Below are positions 683-19,761 of a DNA stretch of 20,855 nucleotides, piece after piece. This DNA comes from a virus. Where the stretch lies: positions 1 to 20,855 of IMG/VR virus record IMGVR_UViG_3300046804_002572, one strand, 5' to 3'. Position 1 is the first letter of the stretch. The number at the start of each line of letters is the position of its first letter. The notes beneath the pieces were generated by a model. That model worked only from the letters and a program-made list of their open reading frames with translations. It did not search any database and was not told where the DNA came from. A program made the position numbers and the translations under genes.

Positions 683-1840
683 ATGGATAGCAAGAATCTT
701 AAAGGTTTGATGGAAGCATATTCGGAAATCTATGCTCCCCAAGAAGTTGATGAAGCAACTGCAATGGCGAAACGTGGTTATGATGAGACTAAACTACGCA
801 AACGTGCTGCTGGTGGTGAAGCAGCAGATAGAGCAACTTCACTTGAGAATAGACCAACATATGGTGATAAGAGCAAGGAAGCACAAAGATCTAGATATGC
901 TAGAGCACAAAGAGGTGATTTCCGTAATACTGCATCATCAAATCCTGGACTGCACGTTGGACAGCACAAGTCTGATGATCCTAAGGTAAAGGCAAAGCAG
1001 GCAGCAAGAGGTGCTCAGAGAGGTGCTTTGACCCCTAATGAGAGAAAGCAACTCAATATGGGAGATGAGACTTTTGATCTATTTGATACTGTTCTTGAGT
1101 TCCTCCAAGCAGAAGGATATGCAGAAACTCTGGAAGAAGCAGAGTGGATGATGGCAAACGTGATTGATGAGGAAGCGATTGGTATTATTCTTGGTGAAGC
1201 ATCATACTCTGCAAAGGCAGCAAGAGCAGGTAAAGATATTGGCAAGCCTGGTAAAGCATTTGCAAAGATTGCAAAGGAAGCAGGTAAGCGTTATGGATCC
1301 AAAGAGCGTGGTGAGAAAGTTGCTGGTGCAGTATTAGCAAAACTTCGTAGAGAAGAGATTGAGATTATTGAAGATGCTTTAGATGAAGCAATCTATAGTG
1401 AAAAGGGTAAAGCAAAAGCAGCAGAAATGATTGCCAAGCGTTCTACTCCTTCTGGTAGAGCAAAGTCAGGTAAAGGTGCTAATGTTGCTCACATTAGACA
1501 AATTCGCGGTTCTGGTAGAGGCGACTTTGATAGAGAGGGTTTGGGTGGAACTCCGATGACTCCAACTATGGCTAAAAATCCAATTAAGAAACAGAACTAT
1601 GTTGGAACTGGAAACAAAGCAGCAAGAAGAGCAGGATTAACACCAACCAGAGAAAAACCAAATGCTTGGAAAGAAGAGTATGTAGATGAAGCACAACACG
1701 CTCGTGAGAACCCTGAGAAGTATGAAAGAGAACAGAGCAAAAAGTCTGCTCCTGTTCGTGGAGAAAAAACTCCTATGCCACCAAGAGGTAATAAGAAGCG
1801 TGAAGATTTTGAAAAGTGGTATGCTGCGAATGTTCGCTGA
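683..1840 (+). CDS. Basic virion-type protein with DLFD...EGYAET module
   Basis: A 385-aa Lys/Arg/Ala/Gly-rich protein with long disordered-looking basic stretches and no membrane segment. The N-terminus (MDSKNLKGLMEAYSEIYAPQ) is an acidic amphipathic helix like those on other late proteins here. Residues 131-164 hold a module, DLFDTVLEFLQAEGYAE, that recurs in the 15313-15840 protein as DLYDIILSHLLDEGYAE. A further Ala/Lys-rich part (173-225) and a basic tail follow. This style is common among T4-like cyanophage virion or head-associated proteins. An internal, DNA-contacting or prohead-core role is inferred from composition and late-promoter context. No enzymatic motif is visible. Confidence 0.7.
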   Translation: MDSKNLKGLMEAYSEIYAPQEVDEATAMAKRGYDETKLRKRAAGGEAADRATSLENRPTYGDKSKEAQRSRYARAQRGDFRNTASSNPGLHVGQHKSDDPKVKAKQAARGAQRGALTPNERKQLNMGDETFDLFDTVLEFLQAEGYAETLEEAEWMMANVIDEEAIGIILGEASYSAKAARAGKDIGKPGKAFAKIAKEAGKRYGSKERGEKVAGAVLAKLRREEIEIIEDALDEAIYSEKGKAKAAEMIAKRSTPSGRAKSGKGANVAHIRQIRGSGRGDFDREGLGGTPMTPTMAKNPIKKQNYVGTGNKAARRAGLTPTREKPNAWKEEYVDEAQHARENPEKYEREQSKKSAPVRGEKTPMPPRGNKKREDFEKWYAANVR

Positions 1841-1846
1841 TAAATA
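1839..1846 (+). promoter_or_regulatory. Possible late promoter box GATAAATA
   Basis: GATAAATA fits the late consensus and overlaps the stop codon of the 683-1840 gene. The next element is a strong terminator at 1865, so a transcript from here would be very short. It may be a coincidental match or a remnant. Confidence 0.25.
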
Positions 1847-1864
1847 ACCACGGAAGGTTGCTCT

Positions 1865-1897
1865 AACCCGCTTGACTTTTAGTTGAGCGGGTTTTAT
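1865..1897 (+). terminator. Strong rho-independent terminator
   Basis: AACCCGCTTGACT (1865-1877) pairs with AGTTGAGCGGGTT (1881-1893), allowing two G-U pairs, to give a 13-bp stem with a TTT loop. A short T-rich tail follows. It ends transcription after the 683-1840 gene and overlaps the promoter of the next tRNA. Confidence 0.85.
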
Positions 1898-1900
1898 AAT
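1872..1900 (+). promoter_or_regulatory. Sigma70-type promoter for tRNA-Ala, nested in the terminator
   Basis: TTGACT (1872-1877), a 17-nt spacer and TATAAT (1895-1900) form a near-consensus promoter. The -35 lies in the 5' arm of the terminator hairpin and the -10 just beyond the stem. The expected start near 1907 is a few bases before the tRNA at 1911. Confidence 0.7.
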
Positions 1901-1910
1901 ATCTAAACAC

Positions 1911-1985
1911 GGGGAATTAGCTCAGTTGGTAGAGCGCCTGCTTTGCACGCAGGAGGTTTCATCGGTTCGAGTCCGATATTCTCCA
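1911..1985 (+). tRNA. tRNA-Ala (anticodon TGC)
   Basis: Full cloverleaf: acceptor GGGGAAT/ATTCTCC with one G-U pair, D arm GCTC/GAGC, anticodon stem CCTGC/GCAGG around loop TTTGCAC (anticodon TGC), T arm ATCGG/CCGAT around TTCGAGT, discriminator A. The variable region has 7 nt (AGGTTTC) against the usual 5. CCA is not encoded. It lies alone inside the structural-gene block with its own promoter. Confidence 0.93.
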
Positions 1986-1988
1986 CTT

Positions 1989-1995
1989 CTAAATA
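1989..1995 (+). promoter_or_regulatory. Late promoter box CTAAATA
   Basis: CTAAATA begins 3 nt after the tRNA-Ala 3' end and lies 29 nt before ATG 2024, so the tRNA and the next late gene appear to be transcribed from separate early- and late-type signals. Confidence 0.5.
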
Positions 1996-2023
1996 CTTTA
2001 ACAAGTCTGTGGAGAGTATTCCT

Positions 2024-3451
2024 ATGACAATAACAATTCCTTCTGAGGCAACAAAAACATTTGAAAAGCTTCTTGGGGCAATGGGGGGAGAAGATTACTC
2101 CTATTATCTTTTTGATGTAAAAAATGTAAATGAAAATCCAAAAGCAAAAAAAGTGATGGAAGTTGTGGTATATGTACCACAATCTAAAAGGATAACTGCA
2201 GCATCAAATATTCAGGGATCTTTGGATGGCGATGGTGTAATAGCACAGATTCGTGAAAAAGAAACGGAATTGGACGTATATTTAATAGGAGATGAAAAAA
2301 AGTATATTAGGGTCCTTGTAAAACCAAATGGATCAAAAGGATCAGGTGGCGGAGCAGAAGCAACTAAAATTCAGGAAGCTGCACAATGTGTTTATGCTGC
2401 AATGAGATATTATTGTGGGGATTTGGAACATATTACTAAAGATCATCTTGGTCATGGGTGGAATCATACTGATGCTCCGGGTGTAAAAATTGAAGATATT
2501 ATGGGACTTCCAAAAGAATGGAAAGATGGGTCTTGGAAGGGAGCTCAAGAAATTTATAAAGAAGTCGGAACTGGAAAACAATACGATTTTGTTAGGGGGG
2601 ATAATGTAATTGAAGATGCAATTTCAAAAGCATTTGGTAGAGTGAAAAGACAAACTAATCTTTCATCTGAAGATAAGTGGAATCCTGCTGATATTTGGAT
2701 GGTGGAAAAAGGAAAAAAACAAAAAATAAAACAAGAATTGGACAGTCAGAATACTATTGATGATCTGAACAATACGCTTCTTCAATTCTTTAATAATAAA
2801 GAATTGATTGGAATTTCTCTTAAAAAAATTGAAGGTACTGCAAATTTATCAGTAAAAAATAATCTTCCAGCATCACAAAGAAAGGCAAATGAAAAAGCAC
2901 ATTTTGCGAAATATGATTTGACTTATGATAATGGGAGAGCAAAGGATAACAATCCTATGGATGTCTACTTATACTATGGTTCTGGGACATTTGAAAAGTT
3001 TCAAGCAAGGAATTTTGGTGGATCTACTAAAGGAGATTGGAAATTAGAATTGAAAGGAAAATCTGCAGCACAAGGAAAAATTCAAGGTGAAGTGGTTATA
3101 AATCTTTTAAAAAATGCTGGATTCAATAATATTAGTCAGTTTACTATACCATCTTGGTCAAATTGCAAACCAGGTAAGGGGAATGGTAAAGATGCAATTA
3201 CTAATGAAATTTACAATCTTTTAAAGAAACATAATGCTGTCGGTTTTGATAAAACTCCAAAGAATGAAATTAATGCTAAAAATGAGATTGCATTACAACC
3301 ACAATCTTGGAGATATAGTAAACTTGCTGGATTAAGATTTTTGGACTGGTTAAAACATACTTGTTCTGACAAAGACCTGGCGATGAAAGAAATTTACTTA
3401 TATGCTTCATCTCAATCTGACAAATCATCAGTTTATTATAAGTTGCAATAA
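2024..3451 (+). CDS. Unknown 475-aa late protein; possible PD-(D/E)XK nuclease fold
   Basis: The frame is open back into the tRNA, but ATG 2024 (MTITIPSEATKTFEKLLGAM) is the sensible start: it clears the tRNA and follows a late-promoter box by 29 nt. I do not recognise a named family with certainty. Visible features: a Gly-rich turn and helix GSGGGAEATKIQEAAQ (residues 106-121), then NPADIW (220-225) and, about 40 residues on, GISLKK (263-268). The order Glu in a first helix, Asp on a strand, then S/ExK is how PD-(D/E)XK nucleases such as phage and restriction enzymes look. This would be a variant with Ser in the E position. A C-terminal domain (about 300-475) contains KGDWKLELKGKSAAQGK. Nuclease activity is an inference. 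No signal peptide or membrane helix is seen. Confidence 0.6.
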   Translation: MTITIPSEATKTFEKLLGAMGGEDYSYYLFDVKNVNENPKAKKVMEVVVYVPQSKRITAASNIQGSLDGDGVIAQIREKETELDVYLIGDEKKYIRVLVKPNGSKGSGGGAEATKIQEAAQCVYAAMRYYCGDLEHITKDHLGHGWNHTDAPGVKIEDIMGLPKEWKDGSWKGAQEIYKEVGTGKQYDFVRGDNVIEDAISKAFGRVKRQTNLSSEDKWNPADIWMVEKGKKQKIKQELDSQNTIDDLNNTLLQFFNNKELIGISLKKIEGTANLSVKNNLPASQRKANEKAHFAKYDLTYDNGRAKDNNPMDVYLYYGSGTFEKFQARNFGGSTKGDWKLELKGKSAAQGKIQGEVVINLLKNAGFNNISQFTIPSWSNCKPGKGNGKDAITNEIYNLLKKHNAVGFDKTPKNEINAKNEIALQPQSWRYSKLAGLRFLDWLKHTCSDKDLAMKEIYLYASSQSDKSSVYYKLQ

Positions 3452-3453
3452 TC

Positions 3454-3461
3454 AATAAATA
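3454..3461 (+). promoter_or_regulatory. Late promoter box AATAAATA
   Basis: AATAAATA lies 21 nt before ATG 3482 and probably drives the nucleotidyltransferase gene together with the 4776-7055 gene behind it. Confidence 0.55.
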
Positions 3462-3481
3462 AAAGTATAAGATTAAACAAT

Positions 3482-4774
3482 ATGAAGAGTTTCTTTACAT
3501 TTTTATCAGAGGCAGCACAATCGCAAGCATCTCAGCAGGCTCAAAAACTGGGTCTGAAAGGAGACGGACACGGCGGTTGGTTGGATCGTTCTGGTAAAGT
3601 AGTAGCAAGAACTGATAAAGGAAAACTTAAATTCATTGATGGTCGTCAAGCAAAATCACCAGAAGAAACCGCTGCATCACAGAGACAAGCAGCACCTGCT
3701 CCAACTGCACAACCTCAAACAGCAGCACCTGCTCCTACACCACAACAACAAGCACCTGGAGCAGCACCTGAAGATCAAGGACAGGAACAAGAACTTCCAC
3801 CACTGACTGTTGTATTTGGTCGCTTCAATCCACCAACAGTTGGGCACGAAAAACTTCTGAAGTCTGCGAAGAGAATTTCTGCTGGCGGAGATATAAAGAT
3901 CTATCCTTCTAGATCCCAGGATCCAAAGAAAAATCCATTAGATCCTAATACTAAAGTTAAGTATATGAAGATGATGTTCCCTGAGTTTGAAGAGAACATT
4001 GTTAACGATGATGATATGAAGACTATCTTCAATGTTCTTGTAACTGCAAATGAGGAAGGATATAATAACGTAAATATTGTTGTAGGATCTGATCGTCAAG
4101 CAGAGTTTGAGAACCTCGCTCAAAAGTATAATGGCGATCTCTACAACTTCGATCAAATTCGTGTTATTTCTGCAGGTGTTCGTGATGCAGATGCAGAAGG
4201 TGTAGAAGGAATGTCTGCATCTAAAATGAGAAAGGCAGTAATGGATAATGACTTTGCATCATTCCGCAGAGGAACTCCAAAAACATTAGATGATGGAGAT
4301 ACTCAAACACTCTTTGATGCAGTCCGTCAAGGAATGGGTGTAAAGAAAGTAAAAGTAAAAAAGGAAAGTTATAATCTCTGGGAGATTGCTCCAAAGTGTG
4401 ATATGAGAAATCTTCGTGAGAATTATGTAAGAGGTAAGATCTTTAGAATTGGAGATAAGGTTGAGAACTTAAATACTGGATTGATTGGTGAAGTAATGCG
4501 TAGAGGAACCAATCATTTAATCTGTGTAACTGAAGAAGGTTATATGTTTAAGTCTTGGATTAAGGATGTAATGGAATATACTGAAGTAAAGATGGATAGA
4601 ATGTATAGAACTCCAGGAAAACCAAATACTCTTTTGGGAACGAAGGGATATTTAAAATACGCTGTTAAACAAACTCCAGGTTCTACTTTAGGAAAAGAAA
4701 ATCTGCAGAAAGGTGGTCGGTCATTTTTAGAATTAATAAATAAGTATAAGGCAAAGAAAGCAAGTACTTATTAA
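3482..4774 (+). CDS. Cytidylyltransferase/NMNAT-like nucleotidyltransferase with a capsid-targeting-like N-terminus
   Basis: A 430-aa multidomain protein. Residues 1-12 (MKSFFTFLSEAA) resemble the T4 internal-protein targeting peptide. Residues 24-55 form a small module (GLKGDGHGGWLDRSGKV). Residues 62-100 are an Ala/Pro/Gln linker. The catalytic domain (about 107-285) has GRFNPPTVGH at 113-122, the T/HxGH nucleotide-binding motif, and MSASKMRKAV at 244-253, matching the downstream ISxTxxR-type motif. Together these indicate nucleotidyl transfer of the NMNAT/cytidylyltransferase type; the acceptor substrate is not determinable. The C-terminal domain (about 315-420) includes GLIGEVMRRGTNHLICVT (333-350). 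It ends one base before the start of the 4776 gene, so the two are probably co-transcribed. An NAD-related role is possible but unproven. Confidence 0.8.
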   Translation: MKSFFTFLSEAAQSQASQQAQKLGLKGDGHGGWLDRSGKVVARTDKGKLKFIDGRQAKSPEETAASQRQAAPAPTAQPQTAAPAPTPQQQAPGAAPEDQGQEQELPPLTVVFGRFNPPTVGHEKLLKSAKRISAGGDIKIYPSRSQDPKKNPLDPNTKVKYMKMMFPEFEENIVNDDDMKTIFNVLVTANEEGYNNVNIVVGSDRQAEFENLAQKYNGDLYNFDQIRVISAGVRDADAEGVEGMSASKMRKAVMDNDFASFRRGTPKTLDDGDTQTLFDAVRQGMGVKKVKVKKESYNLWEIAPKCDMRNLRENYVRGKIFRIGDKVENLNTGLIGEVMRRGTNHLICVTEEGYMFKSWIKDVMEYTEVKMDRMYRTPGKPNTLLGTKGYLKYAVKQTPGSTLGKENLQKGGRSFLELINKYKAKKASTY

Positions 4775-4775
4775 G

Positions 4776-7055
4776 ATGTCTACTAATCCTCTGAACGATA
4801 TCTCCAAAGTATATTTGGAGCAGGTTGCTGCTGTTGAAGAAGGTGTAAGACCTACTCCAGTTGATAAACCACTTGATAAAGCAGCGTTCAAAAAGCGTAG
4901 AAGAAGTCTTGCTGGAAAAGAGAAAAGTGCAGAGGCAAGATCGAGAGGACATCAAGGTAAAGAATGGTATAACAGTGGAAGAACTTATAGTCCTGATGAA
5001 GCAAAGAGAATGCGTTCAAAACTGGATGATGAAGAAAGATCTACAAGACATCGTAGTTCTGTAGACCCTGAGGGTGATGATAGACTCTACTCTGCAGATA
5101 AGACGAAGAATCCCAAGAAACTTCGTAAGCAGAAAGCGATGGGAGAACTTGGTGAGTCTTCACATCTTGAGACTGATATGAAGAAGCGTCGTGAAGCAAA
5201 TGAAAAGGCAATTGAAGATATGAAGAAAACTGCTGCATATAAGAGTATGGCAGCAACAGCAGCGAAGAAGTTTGATGAAGAGTTTGTAGATCCAGAGCAC
5301 GGCGAAGCTCCAAGTGGAAGAAGTCCTTTACAAAATGTCTCAGATCATCCTAGAGCATCTGTAAGAAAAAGAGCTGTAAGTGGATTTAAAGCTCAGATGG
5401 AAAAGGAATATGGTGGGAAGTGGAAATCCAGATCTAGTGATCCTGTCAAAGAAGCACTTGATCCAGTAGGACACGAAGATGCTGATGTTGATAATGATGG
5501 TAAGAAGGGCACCAATGCTGATAAGTATCTCTTAAAGCGTAGAAAAGCAATCGGTAAAGCAATCTCAACTCAAGAAGCAAAAGAAGTGAAGAGATGGTGG
5601 GATGATGATGGTGATGGGGAAGGATATGAAGAAGGAGAAGTCTCTGGTAAGTTTAAGAAGAAAAAGACAGTAAAAGAAGGATACTCAAACTGGAGAGAAG
5701 ACCTTGTTGAGGTAATAGGTGCAATTGAAAAGAAAAAGGATGATGGAAAAATTGCTGAAAAGAAAGTAGAGAACAAAATTGTAATTAATCCATCTATTAC
5801 CGAATCAATAGAAAATCTTGGTGGAACTCTTCTGGAGATGATGGAGATTGATGAAGTAGATTATATTATGGAAAATGTTTATGATGAACTTTTGGATGAG
5901 GGGTATGATGAAGATGATATTGAAGAAGCACTTGAATATGCACTAACTGAAGCAACAGTTACTTTTGGGCATGATACACCAACCGGAGAAAAGAAAAAAG
6001 GTAATCTTTTAAAAGCAGTTGGAAGACTTGCAAGACAAAAACTATCCAGTAAAGTTCGTGGTGCTAAAACAGCAGCAAAACAAGCAGTAGCAACTGGCGC
6101 AAGAAAAGTTGCAAAGGGAGCACTTGGAGTTGCTCGTAAGGTTGAAGGTGGCGATAAAACAGCAAGTCCTGTACATTCCAAGACAAGAACTGCATCAACG
6201 TATCGTGGTGCTGGTGCAGGACAGAAAGAAAGAGTAAGTAGTGGTTCTTATACACCACCTACCAAAAAGAAAGCAGAAAAGCCTGCTGATCCTTGGGAGG
6301 GTAGTGCTACAACTCCACCAAAAGCAAAACCAAAAGCAGCAACTAAAAAGGCAGCAGCACCAAAAGCAAAAGCACCTGCTGCTACAAAGAGAAAGAGAAA
6401 GTCAAAGTTAGATGATCTACTTGCTTCGGTGAGAAGTGAAAGTGTAATTGGAAATAGGGCTAGAAATGCTGTTGCTGATGATAGACTTGATGTGGAGCAA
6501 GAAAAAACTAATGCTTCGATGAATAAATTGAGACAGCAGAATAAGAGATTTGATAGAGCACTTGCATCTGATGCTGCAAGAAAAGTTGAGAGAGATGTAA
6601 AAAAATCGAGTGCTTATGGACCTCAGCGTCTCAAACCAGGAACAGTAACTGGTCGTCGTATTGAGGATCCAAAATCAACAGGTTCAAAAGCAACTGGTTA
6701 TCGTATTGAAGAAACTCAACTTGATGAAAAAACCTTAACCGCTGCTGAGACAAAGGAAAAAGAAAGAATTGTAAAGTCTATGAAAGATAAAGCAGCAGAC
6801 TTTGAGAAGAGATATCCTGGTCGCGGTAAAGAAGTGATGTACGCTACTGCCACTAAAATGGCAAAGAAAATTGCAGAGCAGGCAATGGAACTACAACCAA
6901 AGACTCAACCACAACCAAAAGAAAAACCACTTGATACTGCAATTGAAAGACAGAAATATACAAATTTGAAAATGGTGCAACAAAGGCAACAACAACTCCA
7001 AAAACAAAAACTTAATCTTCAGAGACAAGGAAAACTTCCTTTAGAAACTGATTGA
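4776..7055 (+). CDS. Large basic modular virion-type protein with acidic DxDxDG and histone-like segments
   Basis: A 759-aa protein dominated by Lys, Ala, Arg, Asp and Glu. The N-terminus (MSTNPLNDISKVYLEQVAAV) is an amphipathic leader. Residues 234-242 (EDADVDNDG) resemble a calcium-binding DxDxDG loop and are followed by KYLLKRRKAIGKAI; a second acidic run is at 276-281. Residues 362-393 (ENVYDELLDEGYDEDDIEE) echo the EGYAET module of other late proteins here. Residues 408-545 are strongly basic and Ala-rich, resembling histone H1 tails (KAKPKAATKKAAAPKAKAP). The C-terminus holds VMYATATKMAKKIAEQA (687-703). No catalytic motif is visible. The best guess is a virion or prohead-core, DNA-contacting protein, inferred from composition and neighbours. 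The gene follows the 3482 gene with one base between stop and ATG. Confidence 0.7.
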   Translation: MSTNPLNDISKVYLEQVAAVEEGVRPTPVDKPLDKAAFKKRRRSLAGKEKSAEARSRGHQGKEWYNSGRTYSPDEAKRMRSKLDDEERSTRHRSSVDPEGDDRLYSADKTKNPKKLRKQKAMGELGESSHLETDMKKRREANEKAIEDMKKTAAYKSMAATAAKKFDEEFVDPEHGEAPSGRSPLQNVSDHPRASVRKRAVSGFKAQMEKEYGGKWKSRSSDPVKEALDPVGHEDADVDNDGKKGTNADKYLLKRRKAIGKAISTQEAKEVKRWWDDDGDGEGYEEGEVSGKFKKKKTVKEGYSNWREDLVEVIGAIEKKKDDGKIAEKKVENKIVINPSITESIENLGGTLLEMMEIDEVDYIMENVYDELLDEGYDEDDIEEALEYALTEATVTFGHDTPTGEKKKGNLLKAVGRLARQKLSSKVRGAKTAAKQAVATGARKVAKGALGVARKVEGGDKTASPVHSKTRTASTYRGAGAGQKERVSSGSYTPPTKKKAEKPADPWEGSATTPPKAKPKAATKKAAAPKAKAPAATKRKRKSKLDDLLASVRSESVIGNRARNAVADDRLDVEQEKTNASMNKLRQQNKRFDRALASDAARKVERDVKKSSAYGPQRLKPGTVTGRRIEDPKSTGSKATGYRIEETQLDEKTLTAAETKEKERIVKSMKDKAADFEKRYPGRGKEVMYATATKMAKKIAEQAMELQPKTQPQPKEKPLDTAIERQKYTNLKMVQQRQQQLQKQKLNLQRQGKLPLETD

Positions 7056-7058
7056 TTC

Positions 7059-7065
7059 CTAAATA
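7059..7065 (+). promoter_or_regulatory. Late promoter box CTAAATA
   Basis: CTAAATA lies 29 nt before ATG 7094, just past the stop of the 4776-7055 gene. Confidence 0.5.
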
Positions 7066-7093
7066 ATCCGAATACTCTTTTACGGGGGTCATT

Positions 7094-7267
7094 ATGTCTG
7101 CAGTAGTAGTAGTGGTAAAACCACTTCTTATTTCGATTGCGACACATCCAGCGGTTAAAAATCTTGTTGTTGAACTTTTAACAAAGTATGTAAAGTCCAC
7201 TGATAATAGTATTGATGATGTAGTTCTTGAGTTGGTTAAGGAGAAACTCTTTACGCCACAAGCATGA
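7094..7267 (+). CDS. Small conserved-looking 57-aa protein
   Basis: Begins MSAVVVVVKPLLISIATHPA and ends KEKLFTPQA. The first half is hydrophobic (Val/Leu/Ile) and the second an acidic amphipathic helix (DNSIDDVVLELVKEKL). Its own late box and a following ATGA overlap with the next ORF support it as real. The function is unknown; membrane association or a tiny structural role is possible. Confidence 0.6.
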   Translation: MSAVVVVVKPLLISIATHPAVKNLVVELLTKYVKSTDNSIDDVVLELVKEKLFTPQA

Positions 7268-7428
7268 TTACTTGTTTTGTAACTAACTGGGGAGTAACAA
7301 TTACACTAGGTTTATTATTAACTATATCTGAATGGCTAGCAAAAACAAAAAGATTTGAAGAAAATGGATTATTGGATCTAACAAATAACTTTTTGAGAGT
7401 TGTTTTACGTAAAGGAGACAGAAAGTAA
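7264..7428 (+). CDS. Small 54-aa single-membrane-segment protein, translationally coupled
   Basis: The ATG overlaps the preceding TGA (ATGA, 7264-7267), a classic coupling arrangement. The N-terminal half (VTNWGVTITLGLLLTISEWL) is a likely membrane helix, followed by a basic tail ending VLRKGDRK. The 3' end of the gene forms the 5' arm of the terminator at 7411. Size and topology would suit a holin-like or other small membrane protein, but no family is recognised. Confidence 0.6.
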   Translation: MITCFVTNWGVTITLGLLLTISEWLAKTKRFEENGLLDLTNNFLRVVLRKGDRK

Positions 7429-7445
7429 AGGTCTCCTTTTTTTAT
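7411..7445 (+). terminator. Rho-independent terminator overlapping the 3' end of a small ORF
   Basis: AAAGGAGAC (7411-7419) pairs with GTCTCCTTT (7431-7439), a 9-bp stem followed by a T run. The 5' arm is coding sequence of the 7264-7428 ORF. A late-promoter box follows directly at 7443. Confidence 0.85.
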
Positions 7446-7450
7446 AAATA
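7443..7450 (+). promoter_or_regulatory. Consensus late promoter TATAAATA
   Basis: A perfect TATAAATA begins within the T tract of the preceding terminator and lies 34 nt before ATG 7484. It should drive the 7484-8257 structural gene. Confidence 0.7.
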
Positions 7451-7483
7451 TAATTAGCAAATATTTTTTACGGAAGAAAGAAC

Positions 7484-8257
7484 ATGGCACTCTGGGGAAA
7501 TAATGATGCTAAAGGTTCTGGTGGAACAGTATCTTTAGATTATGTTACTGGCGTTGTAACTGGTTCAGGAACTACTTTTGGTCAAGTGGGTGCTGCTGCA
7601 ACCGGAGATGTAATTCGTTTTGGCAGCAGAACTGGAACTTTTTATGGCGATGCTGTTATTGTGGGAATTGCAAGCACAACTCAACTTTCTATTGCTTCTA
7701 CTGTAGGATTGAGTGGTGCTGCTATTTCTGGGGTTCAGTTTGATATTAGCGAACTTCCTAAGTATACAGTTCTTGATAGTTCATTTAGTGCTTCTAATAT
7801 TACATCTGCAACTTTTGTTTCAATTCCTTATGTGGCAACAGCAACAACAAATGCGGGAATTGGTACAAATATAATTCCTGTTACTGCTGTAACTGGAGCA
7901 ACAGGACTAGTAGTTGGCGATGCTCTTGTAAATGGTGGTAATAATATTGCGATTAACACTATTGGAGCGACGACAATTTCACTTGCCTCTACAATTAGTG
8001 TAGGAATCAGCACTGGGGATACGTTATCATTTAAGAGACTTTCTGATGGTTATGCAAAATCGGTTTATGGTGTAGCTGATGCTGGAATTGATGCTGCTCA
8101 AGGAACAAAATTTGCCCTGACTCATGAGGGATGGGTTGGTATTACCACTTATATGGGATGTGAAGGAGAGATGAGAGTTAAAACTGAAGTTCTTGTTGCA
8201 ATGTCTGGAATTACTACAGGTAACACTCCATTATATGATGCTAATCCACTAAATTGA
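7484..8257 (+). CDS. Glycine/threonine-rich virion structural protein
   Basis: A 257-aa protein beginning MALWGNNDAKGSGGTVSLDY. It is rich in Gly, Thr, Ala, Ser and Val with alternating beta-type residues and no charged low-complexity runs. Two related beta segments are visible: TGVVTGSGTTFGQVGAAATG with the following IGIAST-like stretch in the first 80 residues, and VTGATGLVVGDALVNGG through ISVGISTGDTLSFKR in the middle. The MALWGNND start is, as I recall, typical of a structural protein widely found in T4-like cyanophages. I do not know its place in the particle; tail or appendage is a guess. It has a consensus late promoter of its own. Confidence 0.7.
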   Translation: MALWGNNDAKGSGGTVSLDYVTGVVTGSGTTFGQVGAAATGDVIRFGSRTGTFYGDAVIVGIASTTQLSIASTVGLSGAAISGVQFDISELPKYTVLDSSFSASNITSATFVSIPYVATATTNAGIGTNIIPVTAVTGATGLVVGDALVNGGNNIAINTIGATTISLASTISVGISTGDTLSFKRLSDGYAKSVYGVADAGIDAAQGTKFALTHEGWVGITTYMGCEGEMRVKTEVLVAMSGITTGNTPLYDANPLN

Positions 8258-8264
8258 TTGATTT

Positions 8265-8648
8265 ATGATTTTTAATGAATTGAATGAAGATAATTTTCTT
8301 TTATTTGCTATTAAACATTATGAAAATCCTCAATCTGTGACAAAAGAGGACTTTGAAAAAGATTTGAATCATTTCAAATATATTAAAAGACTTTTGAAAC
8401 GATATAAGAATACGGGTGAGTTAAAAACTCATCTTCTTCTTAATCATTTTATTATTCTTTATAATATTTTTGGCGAAGCAACAACTCCTATGTTGTTTTT
8501 TAAAATTGAAAAAGATCTTTGGTCTTCTATGAAAAGTTTTATTATATTTTTGGGCAGACTTCCAGAATATCCAAAATCTGCAATTCATGATATTAAAGTG
8601 GATGTTAATTGCCTTTCGGAACTTTATAAAATCTACAATGGATCCTAA
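8265..8648 (+). CDS. Conserved phage protein of unknown function, 127 aa
   Basis: Begins MIFNELNEDNFLLFAIKHYE and contains a helical core with FKYIKRLLKRYKNTGEL and LLLNHFIILYNIFGEA. No membrane segment, signal peptide or catalytic motif is evident. It looks like a small helical protein family that I associate with T4-like cyanophages, but I cannot name a function. It starts 7 nt after the structural gene and its 3' end overlaps the next ATG by 11 nt, so these genes form one transcription unit. Confidence 0.65.
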   Translation: MIFNELNEDNFLLFAIKHYENPQSVTKEDFEKDLNHFKYIKRLLKRYKNTGELKTHLLLNHFIILYNIFGEATTPMLFFKIEKDLWSSMKSFIIFLGRLPEYPKSAIHDIKVDVNCLSELYKIYNGS

Positions 8649-8835
8649 AAAACTTGACTGGATTATTTCTATCGTTAGAGAAGAAATGATGGCATCTGGC
8701 CAGAGCGGATTTACTGGTGCTGCAGATCCGAAAGGTCCTGTTGCTGGATTTGATCCTGTTATGGGATTGAAAAAAAGAAAAGGTCCACAAATTAAACTTC
8801 CTCCAGGTTCTCGCAAACGTTGGCAGAAAAAATAA
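8638..8835 (+). CDS. Small 65-aa protein, Gly/Pro and Lys rich C-terminus
   Basis: Begins MDPKKLDWIISIVREEMMAS and ends with a basic tail (LPPGSRKRWQKK). ATG 8638 is preferred because it gives an 11-nt overlap with the upstream gene. The frame extends further upstream, but that would bury the gene in its neighbour. One N-terminal amphipathic helix is followed by a Gly/Pro-rich extended region. The function is unknown. Confidence 0.6.
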   Translation: MDPKKLDWIISIVREEMMASGQSGFTGAADPKGPVAGFDPVMGLKKRKGPQIKLPPGSRKRWQKK

Positions 8836-8837
8836 AA

Positions 8838-9254
8838 ATGTTCCAACCATCATCTACAGAAACAAAAATAGCACTTCTTGAAGAGCGTATTAATGTCTAT
8901 GAGCAGATGATGGAAAGAATTGATACTGCAATTCAAAAGATTGGTGAGACAAGTCAAAATATTAGTCAAATGCTTGCAGTTCATAACGAAAAGATTGAGC
9001 AGTGTAATCGAACCGATAACTTGATTGTTAGAATGATTGAAGATATTAAAGAATCTTCAAAGCAGCAGCACGAATCTATTAGTAAAGAGTTAAGTGAAAG
9101 AATAGATAATGTTGAGAAAAAGGTAGAGTCTCTATCAAAGTTTAGGTGGATGGTAGCAGGAATAATTTCCTTATGCGTGCTTGTCATACCAATTGCTACA
9201 AATTTTATCGCGGATAACTTTGTTCCAAAAGTAGAACAAACAAGAAATAAATAA
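8838..9254 (+). CDS. Coiled-coil protein with a C-terminal membrane helix
   Basis: A 138-aa protein starting at ATG 8838, 2 nt after the previous stop; an in-frame TTG at 8820 would overlap the previous gene. Residues 8-100 are a long heptad-rich coiled coil (ALLEERINVYEQMMERID and ERIDNVEKKVESLSKF). Residues 104-124 are a membrane segment (WMVAGIISLCVLVIPIATNF), with a short charged tail. The architecture resembles XhlA-type phage membrane proteins that pair with holins. That similarity is architectural only, so a lysis role is a hypothesis. It is the last gene of the late cluster before the DNA-metabolism operon. Confidence 0.65.
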   Translation: MFQPSSTETKIALLEERINVYEQMMERIDTAIQKIGETSQNISQMLAVHNEKIEQCNRTDNLIVRMIEDIKESSKQQHESISKELSERIDNVEKKVESLSKFRWMVAGIISLCVLVIPIATNFIADNFVPKVEQTRNK

Positions 9255-12746: not shown

Positions 12747-13325
12747 ATGAATTATAAAAAAATATATAATTCATTGATTGAAAACCGTAAAATAAATTTC
12801 TCTGAAGAACTTGGTGAAATGCACCACATAGTTCCAAAGTGTCTGGGTGGGGATGATAATGCAGATAATTTGGTAAAATTAACTTTTAGAGAGCATTTAT
12901 TGGCACATAGATTATTATCTAAAATTTATCCAAGTCATCCTGGACTAAACTATGCAGTTGTTCTACTTTCCAAAGGTAATTTTGGTAATAGAAAATTGCA
13001 TCCAAAAGGAATGAAAGGTAAAACCCAATCAAAAAAAGCAAGGGAATTAGTTTCTGAATATATGAAACTGAATAACCCGAATAAAAATAAATCTCCTTGG
13101 GACATACCTTCTTCAAATGAGAGTAGTAAAAAAATCTGGAAAAAGGCAGATTATTACTATCAAAAATGGATTGAGATGGGAAAACCAAGTTATTATAAAC
13201 TTACATCAAATTTAAATGAAAAGTGGAAATCATCTCATCAAAATATGGTAATGAAATTTAAATGTGGATGGATACCAAATGAAGATGTACAATGGACTAC
13301 CTGGAGGACAAAAAATGCAGTTTAA
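12747..13325 (+). CDS. HNH homing-type endonuclease between nrdA and nrdB
   Basis: A 192-aa protein with an HNH core at residues 26-55: MHHIVPKCLGGDDNADNL followed by REHLLAHRLL, giving H26/H27, N41 and H50/H54. A basic C-terminal part with few hydrophobic residues (about 80-192) probably binds DNA. In T4 and relatives, free-standing mob and seg homing endonucleases occupy intergenic spaces, and T4 mobE itself lies between nrdA and nrdB. The position here is the same, though orthology to MobE cannot be claimed from the sequence alone. The last 11 nt overlap the nrdB start. Its base composition is more AT-rich than nrdA and nrdB, as expected for a mobile gene. Confidence 0.85.
   Translation: MNYKKIYNSLIENRKINFSEELGEMHHIVPKCLGGDDNADNLVKLTFREHLLAHRLLSKIYPSHPGLNYAVVLLSKGNFGNRKLHPKGMKGKTQSKKARELVSEYMKLNNPNKNKSPWDIPSSNESSKKIWKKADYYYQKWIEMGKPSYYKLTSNLNEKWKSSHQNMVMKFKCGWIPNEDVQWTTWRTKNAV
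13303..13307 (+). promoter_or_regulatory. Shine-Dalgarno GGAGG for nrdB
   Basis: GGAGG lies 7 nt before ATG 13315, inside the 3' end of the HNH gene, and fixes the nrdB start against the longer open frame from 13264. It is the strongest ribosome-binding site noticed in the window. Confidence 0.75.
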
Positions 13326-14553: not shown

Positions 14554-15297
14554 ATGTATTATGTTTACGAATTAATAGACCCGAGAGTTAATCTTCCTTT
14601 CTATGTTGGAAAGGGTAAAGGTAATCGGGTCTATTTTCATTTATCAGAACAATCAAGGGCAAAATCAGACAACTTTAAAAAGTTTGATAAAATTAAAAAA
14701 ATAAGAAAGGAAGGTTATGAACCTGAAGTCAAAATAGTTAAATATTTTGAGGAAGAAAATGATGCTTATGATTATGAAGAGGAACTAATCAAAAAATATG
14801 GAAAAAGAGATATTGATGAAGGTGGAATATTGACGAATATTTGCGAAAGTTCAAGACCACCAAAGTTAAATGGTAGAACTTATCAAGAAATATACGGGGA
14901 TAAGTGGGAGGAACAAATCCAAAAAAGATTAAAGACAAAAGAAGAAAGAGGAAATTATGGTGGTGTAAGAAAACACACAGAGGAAACTAAAAAGAAAATA
15001 AGTGAGAAAGTATCTGGTAAGAATAATCCAAGTTATGGAGTTCCTTGTAGTGAAGAAAGAAAAAGAAAAATAAGTGAAAGAGCAAAAGAGAGATTTGCAA
15101 ATGGGTTTGTATCTCCATCAGCAAAAACTTGGATGTTAATTTCTCCTCAAGGAGAAGAGTTTATAATAACTGGAAAACTTAAAGAGTTTTGTAAGTTAAA
15201 AAATATTTCATATGCGACTATGAGTGCTGCTATTCTGTATGATAGAACTGGACCAAGAAAAAATGGTTGGAGTATCAAAGAACTTATAAATACCTAA
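14554..15297 (+). CDS. GIY-YIG homing endonuclease with NUMOD-type DNA-binding repeats
   Basis: A 247-aa protein. The GIY-YIG catalytic domain (about 1-100) has YYVYELIDP at 2-10 and FYVGKGKGNR at 16-25, with an acidic helix (YDYEEELIKKYG) supplying the expected Glu. Two NUMOD3-like segments follow: HTEETKKKISEKVSGKNNPS near 147 and CSEERKRKISERAKERF near 170. The C-terminal part, with LKEFCKLKNISYATMSAAI, resembles a NUMOD1-type helix-turn-helix. This is the layout of phage Seg and I-Tev-type homing endonucleases. It sits directly after nrdB, so nrdB is flanked on both sides by endonuclease genes. The ATG is chosen for its fit to both promoters. Confidence 0.88.
   Translation: MYYVYELIDPRVNLPFYVGKGKGNRVYFHLSEQSRAKSDNFKKFDKIKKIRKEGYEPEVKIVKYFEEENDAYDYEEELIKKYGKRDIDEGGILTNICESSRPPKLNGRTYQEIYGDKWEEQIQKRLKTKEERGNYGGVRKHTEETKKKISEKVSGKNNPSYGVPCSEERKRKISERAKERFANGFVSPSAKTWMLISPQGEEFIITGKLKEFCKLKNISYATMSAAILYDRTGPRKNGWSIKELINT
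15285..15292 (+). promoter_or_regulatory. Consensus late promoter TATAAATA
   Basis: TATAAATA lies 21 nt before ATG 15313 and overlaps the 3' coding end of the GIY-YIG gene. Confidence 0.7.
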
Positions 15298-15312: not shown

Positions 15313-15840
15313 ATGGACGCACAAGAACTTCGCAATCTCCAAGAGGCATATATGGAAGTTGTTATGAATGAAGCAAAAGTTGATGATACTATGAGTGATT
15401 GGAAGAAACTTGATGCTCGTGACAAAAGACATACTGATAGATTAAGTCCAAGACAGAGAAGACATTTGGATATGAATGTTCGGTCTGGTGATATGAGTGT
15501 AAATCAAAATAGACAACAGGCACATAAACAAAGAAGAGGTAAAAGAAAGCCTGTTGCGAGAAGTATTGGTGGAGGTGGTTCTCACGGAAAGTATTATCAA
15601 GCATCAGTAGAGAAGAAAGCAAATAATATGAGTCCTGAAGATATAAAAAAGAAAAAAAGAGAAGATATGATGAGAAGAATGGGAAATGCTGCTGAGAGAC
15701 GGGGACTTTCTGACCATTATGACCTCTACGACATCATTCTCTCACACCTTCTTGATGAAGGATATGCTGAAACCCCAGAAGCAGCAGAAGCAATTATGGT
15801 GAATATGAGTGAAGAGTGGAGAGATAGTATTATTGGTTGA
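15313..15840 (+). CDS. Basic virion-type protein sharing a module with the 683 gene product
   Basis: A 175-aa protein. The acidic leader (MDAQELRNLQEAYMEVVMNE) parallels that of the 683-1840 product. The middle (35-130) is highly basic with many Arg/Lys/Gln/His residues (HKQRRGKRKPVARS). Residues 137-170 hold the shared module: DLYDIILSHLLDEGYAETPE followed by IMVNMSEEWRD. No enzyme motif is visible. The shared module, late promoter and composition suggest a virion or prohead-associated protein. The paralogy is seen directly; the role is inferred. Confidence 0.7.
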   Translation: MDAQELRNLQEAYMEVVMNEAKVDDTMSDWKKLDARDKRHTDRLSPRQRRHLDMNVRSGDMSVNQNRQQAHKQRRGKRKPVARSIGGGGSHGKYYQASVEKKANNMSPEDIKKKKREDMMRRMGNAAERRGLSDHYDLYDIILSHLLDEGYAETPEAAEAIMVNMSEEWRDSIIG

Positions 15841-16045: not shown

Positions 16046-16207
16046 ATGCCCAAAAATCAAATCAATAAAGAAGAACTAAAAGTTCGCATCTTAAAATTAA
16101 AAGACAAACTTTATAACGAACATATCAGACCTGAAATGGATATGAAAGGACTCGCTCATAAATATCTTAACGAAGTTCTTGATATTGTTAATGAGTATAG
16201 ATATTGA
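16046..16207 (+). CDS. Small conserved-looking 53-aa helical protein
   Basis: Begins MPKNQINKEELKVRILKLKD and ends LDIVNEYRY. It is charged and helical throughout. The ATG directly follows the terminator T tract, with no Shine-Dalgarno. The last 17 nt overlap the next gene. I associate this type of short protein with T4-like cyanophages, but its function is unknown. Confidence 0.6.
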   Translation: MPKNQINKEELKVRILKLKDKLYNEHIRPEMDMKGLAHKYLNEVLDIVNEYRY

Positions 16208-16634
16208 CTATGAAAATCCTTGGGTTTATAATGGAAATCCTTTCACTAGTTTAGATATTGGTGGTTATTATGGATTTGTATATTTGATAGAAAACAAATT
16301 AAATGGCAAAAAATATATTGGTAGAAAATATCTTTGGCAGTTTAGAACTCCAAAGGGCAAGAAGAAAAAAGTAAAATCAGAATCTAATTGGAAAGAATAC
16401 TATGGGTCTTGTCCAGAACTTAAAGAAGACATTGACAAATTTGGCAGAGAAAATTTTAGTAGAACTATCTTATCATTACATAAAACAAAGGGCAAAACAA
16501 ACTTTGGGGAGACCAGTCAACTCTTCAAAAACGATGTCCTCACAGAATCCCTTGACAATGGAGAACCAGCATTCTACAATAGCAACATCTTGGGACGGTT
16601 TTACCGAAAAGACTATTATGAATGCAACGACTGA
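16191..16634 (+). CDS. SegE-like GIY-YIG domain protein
   Basis: A 147-aa protein starting at ATG 16191, inside the previous gene; the open frame before it has no ATG. The GIY-YIG core is GFVYLIENKLNGKKYIGRKY (28-47), followed by KESNW-type residues and YYGSCPELKEDI (70-81), then ILSLHKTKGKTNFGE (93-107). This resembles the SegE subgroup of small phage GIY-YIG nucleases. Unlike the 14554 protein it has no NUMOD repeats, so it may be a non-mobile nuclease fixed in the genome. Both ends overlap neighbours (17 nt each), consistent with stable operon membership. Confidence 0.75.
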   Translation: MSIDIDYENPWVYNGNPFTSLDIGGYYGFVYLIENKLNGKKYIGRKYLWQFRTPKGKKKKVKSESNWKEYYGSCPELKEDIDKFGRENFSRTILSLHKTKGKTNFGETSQLFKNDVLTESLDNGEPAFYNSNILGRFYRKDYYECND

Positions 16635-17158: not shown

Positions 17159-17791
17159 ATGCAAAACATCTTTACTGTAGCCCTTCCCCTTCTGGCATCG
17201 GTTACAACCAATGTGGCAACACTGCCTGTATTTCCTCCTTTGACGACGCCTCCAGCGCCGTTTTCTGTTATTAAGGAGTTTGAAGTTACGACAGCGACCA
17301 AAGAGGTTGCTCCCGAAAAGCCAAAAGAGAAAAGGCTAATTTGTAAAGGGTGTTCGGAATATGAGCAACTTGCTGTGGATTATTTCCAAGAGCAAGGAAT
17401 TAAAGACAGAAACGCCCTTGCTACTATCCTGGGCAATATTAAGCAGGAATCTATGTTCGTGCCTAATATCTGCGAAGGTGGTAGTAGGACCAGTTATCAT
17501 AACTGCGGACGTGGTTATGGTCTGATCCAATGGACATCTGCCGATCGTTATTATGGATTGGGTGATTTTGCTAAGAAGTATGGTGGTTCTCCATCAGAAC
17601 TTCGCACGCAACTTCGTTATCTAACGACTGAAGTTCAATGGCAACGTATCGAAGACAGGATGAAAACTCCTGGTAAGTCTATTGATCGTTACATGGACTA
17701 TGCGTATAGTTGGATTGGTTGGGGGCATCATGGTGCTCGCACTTCATATGCTTATGATTATGCTTCCAAACTGATCACGGTAGAGGTTTGA
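17159..17791 (+). CDS. Exported phage lysozyme (tail-lysozyme family), candidate endolysin
   Basis: A 210-aa protein. The N-terminus (MQNIFTVALPLLASVTTNVA) is a hydrophobic signal or anchor sequence, followed by a Pro/Thr-rich linker (21-57). The catalytic domain (about 65-205) has LGNIKQESMF at 91-100 with E97 as the likely catalytic Glu, and GYGLIQWTSADRYYGLGDF (119-137), hallmarks of phage tail-lysozyme-like peptidoglycan hydrolases. Cysteines C62, C65, C105 and C116 could form disulfides outside the cytoplasm. The export signal suggests a Sec-released endolysin as well as a tail enzyme; the sequence alone cannot choose. The next but one gene is a small membrane-anchored protein, so this may be a lysis module. 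Confidence 0.8.
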   Translation: MQNIFTVALPLLASVTTNVATLPVFPPLTTPPAPFSVIKEFEVTTATKEVAPEKPKEKRLICKGCSEYEQLAVDYFQEQGIKDRNALATILGNIKQESMFVPNICEGGSRTSYHNCGRGYGLIQWTSADRYYGLGDFAKKYGGSPSELRTQLRYLTTEVQWQRIEDRMKTPGKSIDRYMDYAYSWIGWGHHGARTSYAYDYASKLITVEV

Positions 17792-17815: not shown

Positions 17816-17823
17816 AATAAATA
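17816..17823 (+). promoter_or_regulatory. Late promoter box AATAAATA abutting a terminator
   Basis: AATAAATA lies 2 nt before the hairpin at 17826 and 37 nt before ATG 17860. A T4-type late start, about 6 nt past the box, falls within the hairpin's 5' arm. Confidence 0.6.
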
Positions 17824-17825
17824 AT

Positions 17826-17853
17826 GGGGAGTGCTGCAGACCTCCCCTTTTTT
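17826..17853 (+). terminator. Rho-independent terminator upstream of the HNH-like gene
   Basis: GGGGAG (17826-17831) pairs with CTCCCC (17842-17847), followed by six T. It should stop transcription arriving from the lysozyme gene, just before ATG 17860. Confidence 0.8.
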
Positions 17854-17859
17854 AGTAGA

Positions 17860-18393
17860 ATGAAAACATTTAAAGAGTTTATAATAGAAGCATCTAGAGA
17901 AGAAGCTGAAAAGAAAAGACTTGCAAAAGATAATCCCGATGAATGGAGAGTTAGAAATACTGGCGGGGGTAAATGGACTACAAAAAGAAAATCTTCAATA
18001 CAGGGGCAAGGTGAAAGAAGATCGCAAAATTTAAGAGCAATAAGTAAGAAAGAATTGGAAGATCATGCTAAGAGAAATCTTCATCCAAGTCCTTCAACAA
18101 CAGCGAATAAGGCATTAAAAATTGAAAGAGAAAGAAAGAAAAAGCAAAGAGAAGAAGCACAAAATAAATCAAGAGAAACTGGAAGACAGCATGATGTAGA
18201 TCATATACAGGCGCAAGCAAATAGAAAAGGACATTCTGATAGGTGGCATAGAATACATCCAGGAGATGCTTCTGATAATAGAAGAGTTATTCCTCAATCA
18301 GATAATCTAACTAAAAATTCAAAAGATACTGGCGGAAAGAAAACTACAAGAGCATCGGTTATCAGAAAAGCACTTATGAGGGCGAGGGGATAA
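17860..18393 (+). CDS. HNH-like nuclease with a T4-type capsid-targeting N-terminus
   Basis: A 177-aa, very basic protein. Residues 1-11 (MKTFKEFIIEA) nearly match the T4 internal-protein targeting peptide, cleaved by gp21 after the Glu. A charged helical middle follows (12-105). The putative nuclease site is HDVDHIQAQA (111-120; D114, H115), then RIHPGDASDNRRVIP (131-145; H133, N140) and SDNLTKN (147-153), a DH...N...N pattern of His-Me finger type. ATG 17860 is chosen because the alternative at 17824 lies in the terminator hairpin and would bury the leader. No Shine-Dalgarno is seen. Packaging into the head and injection into the host are inferred from the leader; nuclease function is inferred from the motif. 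Confidence 0.7.
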   Translation: MKTFKEFIIEASREEAEKKRLAKDNPDEWRVRNTGGGKWTTKRKSSIQGQGERRSQNLRAISKKELEDHAKRNLHPSPSTTANKALKIERERKKKQREEAQNKSRETGRQHDVDHIQAQANRKGHSDRWHRIHPGDASDNRRVIPQSDNLTKNSKDTGGKKTTRASVIRKALMRARG

Positions 18394-18399
18394 TAAATA
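18392..18399 (+). promoter_or_regulatory. Late promoter box AATAAATA abutting a terminator
   Basis: AATAAATA overlaps the stop of the HNH-like gene and touches the hairpin starting at 18400; ATG 18429 lies 30 nt downstream. A late start near 18405 would remove most of the 5' arm. Confidence 0.6.
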
Positions 18400-18428
18400 G
18401 AGGAGAGCGGTTGCTACTCCTCTTTTTT
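18400..18428 (+). terminator. Rho-independent terminator abutting a start codon
   Basis: GAGGAG (18400-18405) pairs with CTCCTC (18417-18422), then six T run into ATG 18429. Confidence 0.8.
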
Positions 18429-18872
18429 ATGTTTAATTTTAACTTCGGAAAGAAGAAACCAGATAGGAAGCAGATAATCCTTATAAGCGTCATACTCAGT
18501 GGTATCGTAGCAACCCTCTCCCAATGCACAGGAGCGCCCCAGGAGCGCCTCTGGGACCTTCTAGACGAGGTTCAGAGGACTCTGTTCCCTCAGACCATAA
18601 TCAATGATGTCCTGCTCCAAGACCCTGGCGTAGTGGATAGGAGGGTCAAGAGGGATGTGGATAAAGCAATCAGAGAGTATGAACGCTTGACAAAGGACTC
18701 AGAACCACCTAGAGTACCTTTGCCACGGTTGATTGAGAAAGCTCCAGATAAAGCTTTATGTTATACTAAAGAATGCTTAAGTCTTGGTGGAGAAATGAGA
18801 CTCTGTGCTCCTTGGGTTCCAGATTGTGTAGGAGGTACTGAATTTGATATTGACAAAAGACAAGAGAAGTAG
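18429..18872 (+). CDS. Small membrane-anchored protein of unknown function
   Basis: A 147-aa protein. The basic N-terminus (FGKKKPDRK) precedes a membrane helix at about 15-32 (QIILISVILSGIVATLSQC), giving an N-in anchor with the rest outside. C33 follows SQ, which does not make a proper lipobox. The exported part is charged, with four Cys near the end (CYTKECLSLGG then CAPWVPDC), suggesting disulfides. Position two genes after the lysozyme suggests a lysis or cell-envelope role such as a spanin-like protein, without sequence proof. The first two-thirds are notably GC-richer and use AGG and CTC/CTG codons, unlike neighbouring genes. The long frame from TTG 18411 is rejected because it starts in the terminator. 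Confidence 0.65.
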   Translation: MFNFNFGKKKPDRKQIILISVILSGIVATLSQCTGAPQERLWDLLDEVQRTLFPQTIINDVLLQDPGVVDRRVKRDVDKAIREYERLTKDSEPPRVPLPRLIEKAPDKALCYTKECLSLGGEMRLCAPWVPDCVGGTEFDIDKRQEK

Positions 18873-19200: not shown

Positions 19201-19761
19201 ATGGATAAACAAAAGTTAATAGATTATATTGAAAGTGGGATGTCAACTACTCAAATATCAAAGTTAGAAAACAAAGGTAAAACGACTATCAGATATTGGT
19301 TAGATAAGTATGAATTAAAAACAAAAAATAAATCCTTTAAGGAAGGATATGTAGAAAATCCTATTTTAAGGATAAATGGAAAACCAATTCAATCTTGTGC
19401 TAAATGTGGAATTTCTTTAAATGAAGAAACTGGATATTGGAGAGAAAGTAAAAAAATATGGCAGGGAAATTGTAAAAAATGTCACAACAGTTATAATGCC
19501 GACAGGTGGAAAAATAGTAAAAAGAAAGCAGTTGAATATAAAGGAGGTAAATGTGAAAAATGCGGATACAATAAATGTATTGATGCTTTAGAATTTCATC
19601 ATACAGACCCAACACAAAAAGATAAAAATTTTGGGAATATGAAATTAAGAAAATGGGAAGACCAGAAAAAAGAACTTGATAAGTGCATATGTGTATGTGC
19701 TAATTGCCACAGAGAAATACACTCAGAACTTAGGCTTGACACCACACAAGAATTGGTGTAA
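19201..19761 (+). CDS. HNH homing-type endonuclease with HTH and zinc sites, inside the tRNA island
   Basis: A 186-aa protein. The N-terminal helix-turn-helix (about 12-38, STTQISKLENKGKTTIRYWL) precedes a zinc site CAKCG (66, 69) with CKKC (91, 94). The C-terminal HNH domain has CEKCGYNKC (118-126), EFHHTDP (131-137) and CANCHREIH (166-174), which pairs structural cysteines with H133/H134, N168 and H174. This is a typical free-standing phage HNH endonuclease. It sits between tRNA-Arg and tRNA-Leu. The last 26 nt hold the promoter of the downstream tRNAs. Its AT-rich composition matches the other mobile genes here. Confidence 0.88.
   Translation: MDKQKLIDYIESGMSTTQISKLENKGKTTIRYWLDKYELKTKNKSFKEGYVENPILRINGKPIQSCAKCGISLNEETGYWRESKKIWQGNCKKCHNSYNADRWKNSKKKAVEYKGGKCEKCGYNKCIDALEFHHTDPTQKDKNFGNMKLRKWEDQKKELDKCICVCANCHREIHSELRLDTTQELV

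Follow-up and report, generated by a model that had tools for sequence, protein, structure and literature searches.

The window analysed here is a 20,855-base IMG/VR record of a T4-like cyanophage whose nearest cultured relatives include three Synechococcus phages of reservoir or lake origin, S-SRM01, DSL-LC02 and DSL-LC03. A reading made from the sequence alone had placed an open reading frame at 17860-18393 and proposed for it an HNH-like nuclease behind a capsid-targeting leader of the T4 internal-protein type; coordinates, frame and translation (MKTFKEFIIEASREEAEKK...HDVDHIQAQ...SDNRRVIPQSDNLTKNSK) are all exact. The gene and its surroundings comprise the following features.

17159-17791, + strand: tail-lysozyme gene (PF18013, 1.4e-16), left border of the slot
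17816-17823, + strand: late-promoter box AATAAATA, compared with the cyanophage consensus
17826-17853, + strand: hairpin GGGGAG...CTCCCC followed by T6, -10.5 kcal/mol, between promoter and start codon
17860-18393, + strand: whole gene of the nuclease-like protein, 177 aa, pI about 10.8-11
17860-17889, + strand: leader MKTFKEFIIE, of capsid-targeting type by T4 leaders, conservation, virion association and capsid propeptides
17893-18030, + strand: linker, residues 12-57
18031-18390, + strand: C-terminal domain of HNH/His-Me-finger type by motif and alignment, residues 58-177
18199-18204, + strand: D114-H115, putative metal/general-base pair
18277-18279, + strand: N140
18304-18315, + strand: N149 to K152, the end of N-x8-N-x2-K
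18392-18399, + strand: a second late-promoter box, for the next gene, accompanied by a separate hairpin that extends to about 18428
18429-18872, + strand: conserved phrog_3316 gene (PHROG match), right border of the slot

An alternative in-frame ATG lies at 17824, just ahead of the upstream hairpin; the start was taken as 17860 on the evidence of the relatives and of the promoter and hairpin layout. This start falls 36 bases past the box AATAAATA, and the cyanophage late-promoter consensus is NATAAATA (PMC2984593). Among leader genes more widely, 24 of 28 starts have an [N][A/C/T]TAAATA box no more than 60 bases upstream; in background 60-nt windows the rate is 5%. The box would thus make the gene a late one, as is expected of a T4-type internal protein. 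The hairpin recurs, identical or nearly so, 5' of leader genes at four other loci (L009, L019, L020, L063).

All 14 NATAAATA late-promoter boxes of the whole window lie on the + strand. In the slot, a late promoter and then a hairpin plus T run stand ahead of every gene (17816-17853, 18392-18428), and such promoter-hairpin repeats could let gene cassettes recombine.

Leaders in the window and in cyanophage virions

The T4 peptide that the sequence-only reading had quoted proved correct, for IPII and IPIII both start MKTYQEFIAEA in the T4 record; the claimed match at most positions of MKTFKEFIIEA amounts to 8 of 11 identical residues. T4 IPI starts MKTFKEF, which is the window leader over its first seven residues. 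Among 30 related starts, K2 is invariant, position 4 is F or Y (one I), position 7 is F (one L), position 8 is I or L and position 10 is E in 29, a conservation of 29-30 out of 30 at positions 2, 4, 7, 8 and 10 that treats F/Y and I/L as equivalent. Position 3 is Thr in 28 of these starts with every one of the four Thr codons in use, so that it is the peptide and not the DNA that is conserved. The leader is also retained in relatives down to 38-47% identity. In mutants of T4 IPIII, targeting depends mainly on residues 4 and 7 and processing on residues 8 and 10 (PMC9026906); these are the conserved positions here, within an N-terminal leader of about ten residues as in the T4-type capsid targeting sequence (CTS). 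The composition-based null probabilities argue that the likeness is not due to chance, with values per protein of about 3e-5 (MK.[FY]..F..E) and about 5e-9 (MKTF..FI.EA); 24 instances of the former pattern were found in 13 phage records, against two of a reversed control.

Cleavage by the prohead protease is predicted after Glu10, the next codon being Ala11. The junction IIE/A (the slash marking the cut) is of the type that the major capsid propeptides of S-CREM2 and S-SCSM1 carry at their expected end, FLAE/A and LLTE/A. The predicted mature protein has 167 aa, a computed mass of 19.2 kDa and a computed net charge of +22 (pI 11), the small basic body of a T4-type internal protein. A match of residues 1-25 to a PHROG 'internal head protein' (E=0.27) is suggestive only. 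The leader strings gave no result in a literature search, and other literature could still describe the leader. T4 gp61.1 (NC_000866 18966-19130), a protein of unknown function, starts MKTFKEFIKE, apparently a CTS, and is possibly an unrecognised internal protein.

Virion assignments in two cyanophages, taken here and below from passages of the respective papers (for S-CREM2, the mass-spectrometric proteome in Table 3 of PMC10665884), associate such leaders with the particle. In S-CREM2 the leader pattern, which was widened after the virion proteins had been inspected, occurs in 5 of 52 virion proteins and in none of 167 others (p=6e-4; 219 proteins). The five are the SAM hydrolase gp6, gp13, the kinase gp14, gp136 and the cytidylyltransferase gp154. 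Since this first pattern was loosened post hoc, a stricter one derived from the family and T4 is given as well: over S-CREM2 and S-SCSM1 together it marks 4 of 97 virion proteins and 1 of 404 others (p=0.006). The S-SCSM1 leader protein gp30 (106 aa) has no virion tag. The authors of both virion papers caution, in the passages available, that such enzymes might be co-purified (PMC10665884, PMC9602691); this is less likely for the leader proteins because the leader is common to them. The passages of PMC10665884 and PMC9602691 in question do not mention a shared leader. No member of the nuclease family was detected in any virion, its carriers being absent from the phage-record collection searched.

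The window contains a second leader gene.

3482-4774, + strand: MKSFFTFLSEA cytidylyl/NMN-adenylyltransferase, with virion homologues in S-SCSM1 and S-CREM2

Its product is 60% identical to the virion-detected NMNAT of S-SCSM1 and is also homologous to S-CREM2 gp154. With this gene included, seven window genes besides the nuclease have a counterpart among S-SCSM1 virion proteins, the other six being 683-1840, 2021-3451, 4776-7055, 7484-8257, 8587-8835 and 15313-15840, of which the last matches over a short stretch.

Several observations on this part of the window and its homologues may be set apart. Across the gene block 683-9254, the S-SCSM1 homologues are mostly virion-tagged in the same source, and candidate leaders of another kind (MDSKNLKGLMEAY, MSTNPLNDISKVYLEQ), present in several of its genes, may represent a second type of head-targeting signal. 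The small protein of 8587-8835 contains GFTGAADPKGPVAGFDPVMG, which is almost identical to the segment just past the presumed major capsid cleavage site; its homologues S-CREM2 gp160 and S-SCSM1_97 are listed virion proteins, and the product is possibly a capsid-mimicking head protein. Additionally, gene 93 of S-SCSM1 (L038; record 91626-91835) encodes a virion protein with a leader-like C-terminus, KKRTFKEFLEYIE.

The nuclease-like domain and its swapped counterparts

The domain spanning residues 58-177 matches 39 loci in viral contigs; none was found in bacterial or archaeal genomes, and 50,697 phage records hold no relative of the window protein. H115 and N140, named by the sequence-only reading as the residues to mutate, are invariant in a 28-sequence alignment, as are Q119, D136, N149 and K152. 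The motif DH[IVN]...N-x8-N-x2-K is present in 28 of 28 relatives (one with G for D) and in 0.15% of shuffles, giving all of them the pattern of catalytic His with metal-binding Asn/His that marks HNH/His-Me finger enzymes. In S-CREM2, DH...N-x8-N-x2-K picks out 2 of 219 proteins, both annotated as nucleases: gp177, an HNH endonuclease, and gp12, a CRISPR-associated endonuclease tabulated as a virion protein, in which residues 17-26 (LRFASFMAEA) are leader-like. The motif spacing recurs in a Burkholderia phage HNH 'homing endonuclease' to which one diverged relative shows a distant likeness (E=0.02).

Profile and structure searches were less definite. The window protein has no significant Pfam, NCBIfam, PHROG nuclease or PDB match, and the best profile scores among its relatives are 0.011 for GmrSD_C and 0.12 for HNH. 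Matches to Exonuc_VII_L, PulS_OutS and DUF2992 fell below threshold and were taken as chance. Two AlphaFold models were built, from 16 and 28 sequences. The modelled order of strand 111-115, strand 141-145 and helix 146-151 is that expected for a beta-beta-alpha-metal site, with a poorly predicted intervening loop (pLDDT about 49). A Foldseek search for a His-Me finger fold with both models gave no significant PDB match; the top BFVD matches are mostly HNH proteins, the best at E=0.12 and none significant. We therefore call the protein HNH-type on motif conservation rather than on a proven fold, and the motif supports an HNH-type nuclease-like domain as its body. Of the two halves of the earlier claim, capsid targeting is well supported, by the T4 CTS positions, the late promoters and the virion-detected leaders of the same type, whereas the nuclease assignment is carried by the motif and by a weak likeness to annotated phage HNH endonucleases, with no significant profile or PDB match. 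One copy of the nuclease gene (L013:1779-2345) has an in-frame stop near codon 27 and is otherwise open.

The leader and the domain are separable. The window protein and its counterpart at L017 are 85% identical over residues 1-54 and wholly different in the remainder. A second nuclease-like class (HH...N) is borne by L017, L019/L020, L026 and L031. Four cargo types were counted at first, a division that was dropped since reciprocal BLAST relates types B, C and D; there are thus two nuclease classes and not four. The slot between the lysozyme and phrog_3316 genes holds class A in the window, L009, L063 and L055-type loci, and the second class in L019, L020 and L023; it is empty in DSL-LC02 and DSL-LC03 and is occupied in S-SRM01 by an unrelated gene without a leader. 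Both of its borders also occur in phages lacking the nuclease, and the nuclease family is found at several unrelated loci. An adjacent immunity gene was sought at the slot and none was found; no ORF fits between 18393 and 18429. HNH/GIY-YIG homing-type genes of the window (12747-13325, 14554-15297, 16179-16634 and 19201-19761, around nrdA/nrdB and elsewhere) have no leader.

At two loci (L018:4779-9262 and L026:3516-5790), all or most genes in a run of consecutive late genes carry a CTS-type leader. These arrays are partly common, with an EMRKED-type basic protein, a GNAT-like (acetyltransferase) protein and an MKTYQEF protein (81% identical), and the nucleases beside them are of different class. 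Several pairs of leader proteins align over residues 1-11 only, their bodies being unrelated, and leader-only similarity has likewise been reported for T4 Ip1-3 (PMC12373910). At L072 the nuclease is accompanied by a nucleotidyltransferase that bears a leader; the S-CREM2 homologue of this transferase, gp156, is tabulated as a virion protein. At L015, L018, L023, L055-type loci and L064 (a degenerate copy) the leader segment lies inside a longer protein; in L023, L055-type loci and L064 another basic protein is fused ahead of it, that of L064 itself starting with the leader-like MITFNEFIERV. The family thus combines different bodies, one leader and variable loci, as T4-type internal proteins do, with the common delivery module and swapped toxin domains of polymorphic toxins.

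A proposed packaged nuclease and its alternatives

Our favored explanation, to which we give a probability of about 0.62, is that the gene encodes a late, head-packaged, protease-trimmed HNH-type nuclease that is injected and cuts host or rival DNA in the next cell. As an accessory internal head protein gene it would be transcribed late, and the first ten residues would recruit the precursor into the prohead core, where the prohead protease would trim it after Glu10. The trimmed nuclease would be packaged alongside the DNA and delivered by injection to the next cell, where its mature, strongly basic HNH-type domain would cut the host chromosome or the DNA of rivals, whether resident or co-infecting. 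By analogy, the virion probably carries the nuclease and injects it along with the viral genome; the early steps would follow T4 precedent and the virion enrichment of leaders, while DNA cleavage is suggested by the motif. We infer in this way the packaging, cleavage and injection of the window nuclease, its activity and its target. The observation from which this work began is confirmed, and its interpretation is partly supported, being right in the main lines with a function that is still putative.

A point against this explanation is that a nuclease would have to be kept from acting while packed beside the genome, and no immunity gene is apparent. The virus's own DNA could possibly be spared by sequence specificity, by DNA modification or by a shortage of free metal ions inside the head. 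The T4 CTS has been fused in the laboratory to staphylococcal nuclease or EcoRI (PMC9026906, PMC3012670), and since T4 carries such fusions a phage can remain viable with a nuclease in its head.

The best of the alternatives, although unlikely, is an internal protein whose nuclease-like fold is inactive or merely binds, condensing DNA or blocking a host restriction system. All three T4 internal proteins, IPI, IPII and IPIII, are injected restriction inhibitors that block GmrSD enzymes (PMC12373910), the window protein is very basic, and the C-terminal HNH domain of GmrSD has a weak match in one relative (E=0.01-0.025), a likeness that would fit a mimic or decoy. A pure binder would, however, have no need of H115, N140, N149 and K152, invariant over 28 diverged sequences, nor does this account sit well with a second, apparently unrelated HNH-type class at the same place under the same leader. 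Somewhat less probable again is a free-standing homing endonuclease that enters phages lacking the gene, with the leader a by-product or an aid to faster homing at co-infection. The HNH motif, the distant likeness to the Burkholderia phage enzyme, the occurrence of the slot both occupied and empty and the several GIY-YIG/HNH homing-type genes of the window would fit it, but those homing-type genes lack the leader, nearly all relatives of the nuclease keep it even inside longer fusions, GNAT, NTase and other non-nuclease bodies share it, and the family is spread over several unrelated loci. Late expression and head targeting would equally place the nuclease for a role that precedes injection, either in the prohead or while DNA is being packaged (trimming or clearing DNA, for instance); its accessory distribution, with the slot empty or otherwise filled in related phages, implies that it is not essential for head assembly and makes this role very improbable. 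That the leader is a chance resemblance on a cytoplasmic late protein is scarcely credible, for although ten residues only are at stake and head packaging of the window protein is a prediction, the full motif has the null probability given above, is conserved and belongs to a type enriched in virion proteins.

CTS-type labels sit on many different, interchangeable proteins in T4-like cyanophages. It is tempting to speculate, and we do so tentatively, that these phages possess a large modular set of virion-borne effectors under a common CTS, comprising nucleases, an acetyltransferase, nucleotidyltransferases, a kinase and a SAM hydrolase, with nuclease domains swapped as in polymorphic toxins and attacking the DNA of the host or of rivals as soon as infection begins. 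The injected internal proteins known so far, those of T4, are restriction inhibitors under a common address label. Natural CTS nucleases in abundant cyanobacterial viruses, if real, would mean that DNA-attacking enzymes are delivered before gene expression, and it would become a concrete question why the viral genome survives next to a packaged nuclease. The leader also offers a simple rule by which injected cyanophage proteins, many of them annotated only as hypothetical, could be recognised from sequence.

Comparison with known systems

The family shares with bacterial polymorphic toxins a single delivery module and swapped C-terminal nuclease domains, but the module is here a phage head signal and no paired immunity gene was found. 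With VDHIVPL-type phage HNH endonucleases (Burkholderia phage Maja QOV06326, phage DSS3_MAL1) it has in common TG-x2-[HY]-x-V-D-H-I ... N-x8-N-x2-K, although those enzymes have no leader and the similarity is weak (E 0.01-0.1). Nearer in delivery are S-CREM2 gp12, gp6, gp14 and gp154 (PMC10665884) and the S-SCSM1 NMNAT (PMC9602691), virion-detected in the passages available and bearing the same type of leader; their bodies are not homologous to the window nuclease, and gp12 shares with it the DH...N-x8-N-x2-K motif.

The closest system is that of T4 itself. Its internal proteins and their capsid targeting sequence were reportedly described by Repoila in 1994 and by Mullaney and Black in 1996. 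IPI, IPII and IPIII (Silas 2025, PMC12373910) have a near-identical leader, a predicted cut after Glu10 and a small basic body, and they too are polymorphic, with unrelated bodies and the leader alone in common. They differ in being restriction inhibitors, whereas the window body is HNH-type nuclease-like; furthermore, the window family belongs to viruses of cyanobacterial hosts and carries the leader inside fusion proteins in some members. We conclude that the window gene represents a variant of T4's internal-protein system, not a separate kind. In the laboratory fusions, the CTS likewise aims a nuclease into the T4 head; what was engineered there is, in the window family, natural and diversified.
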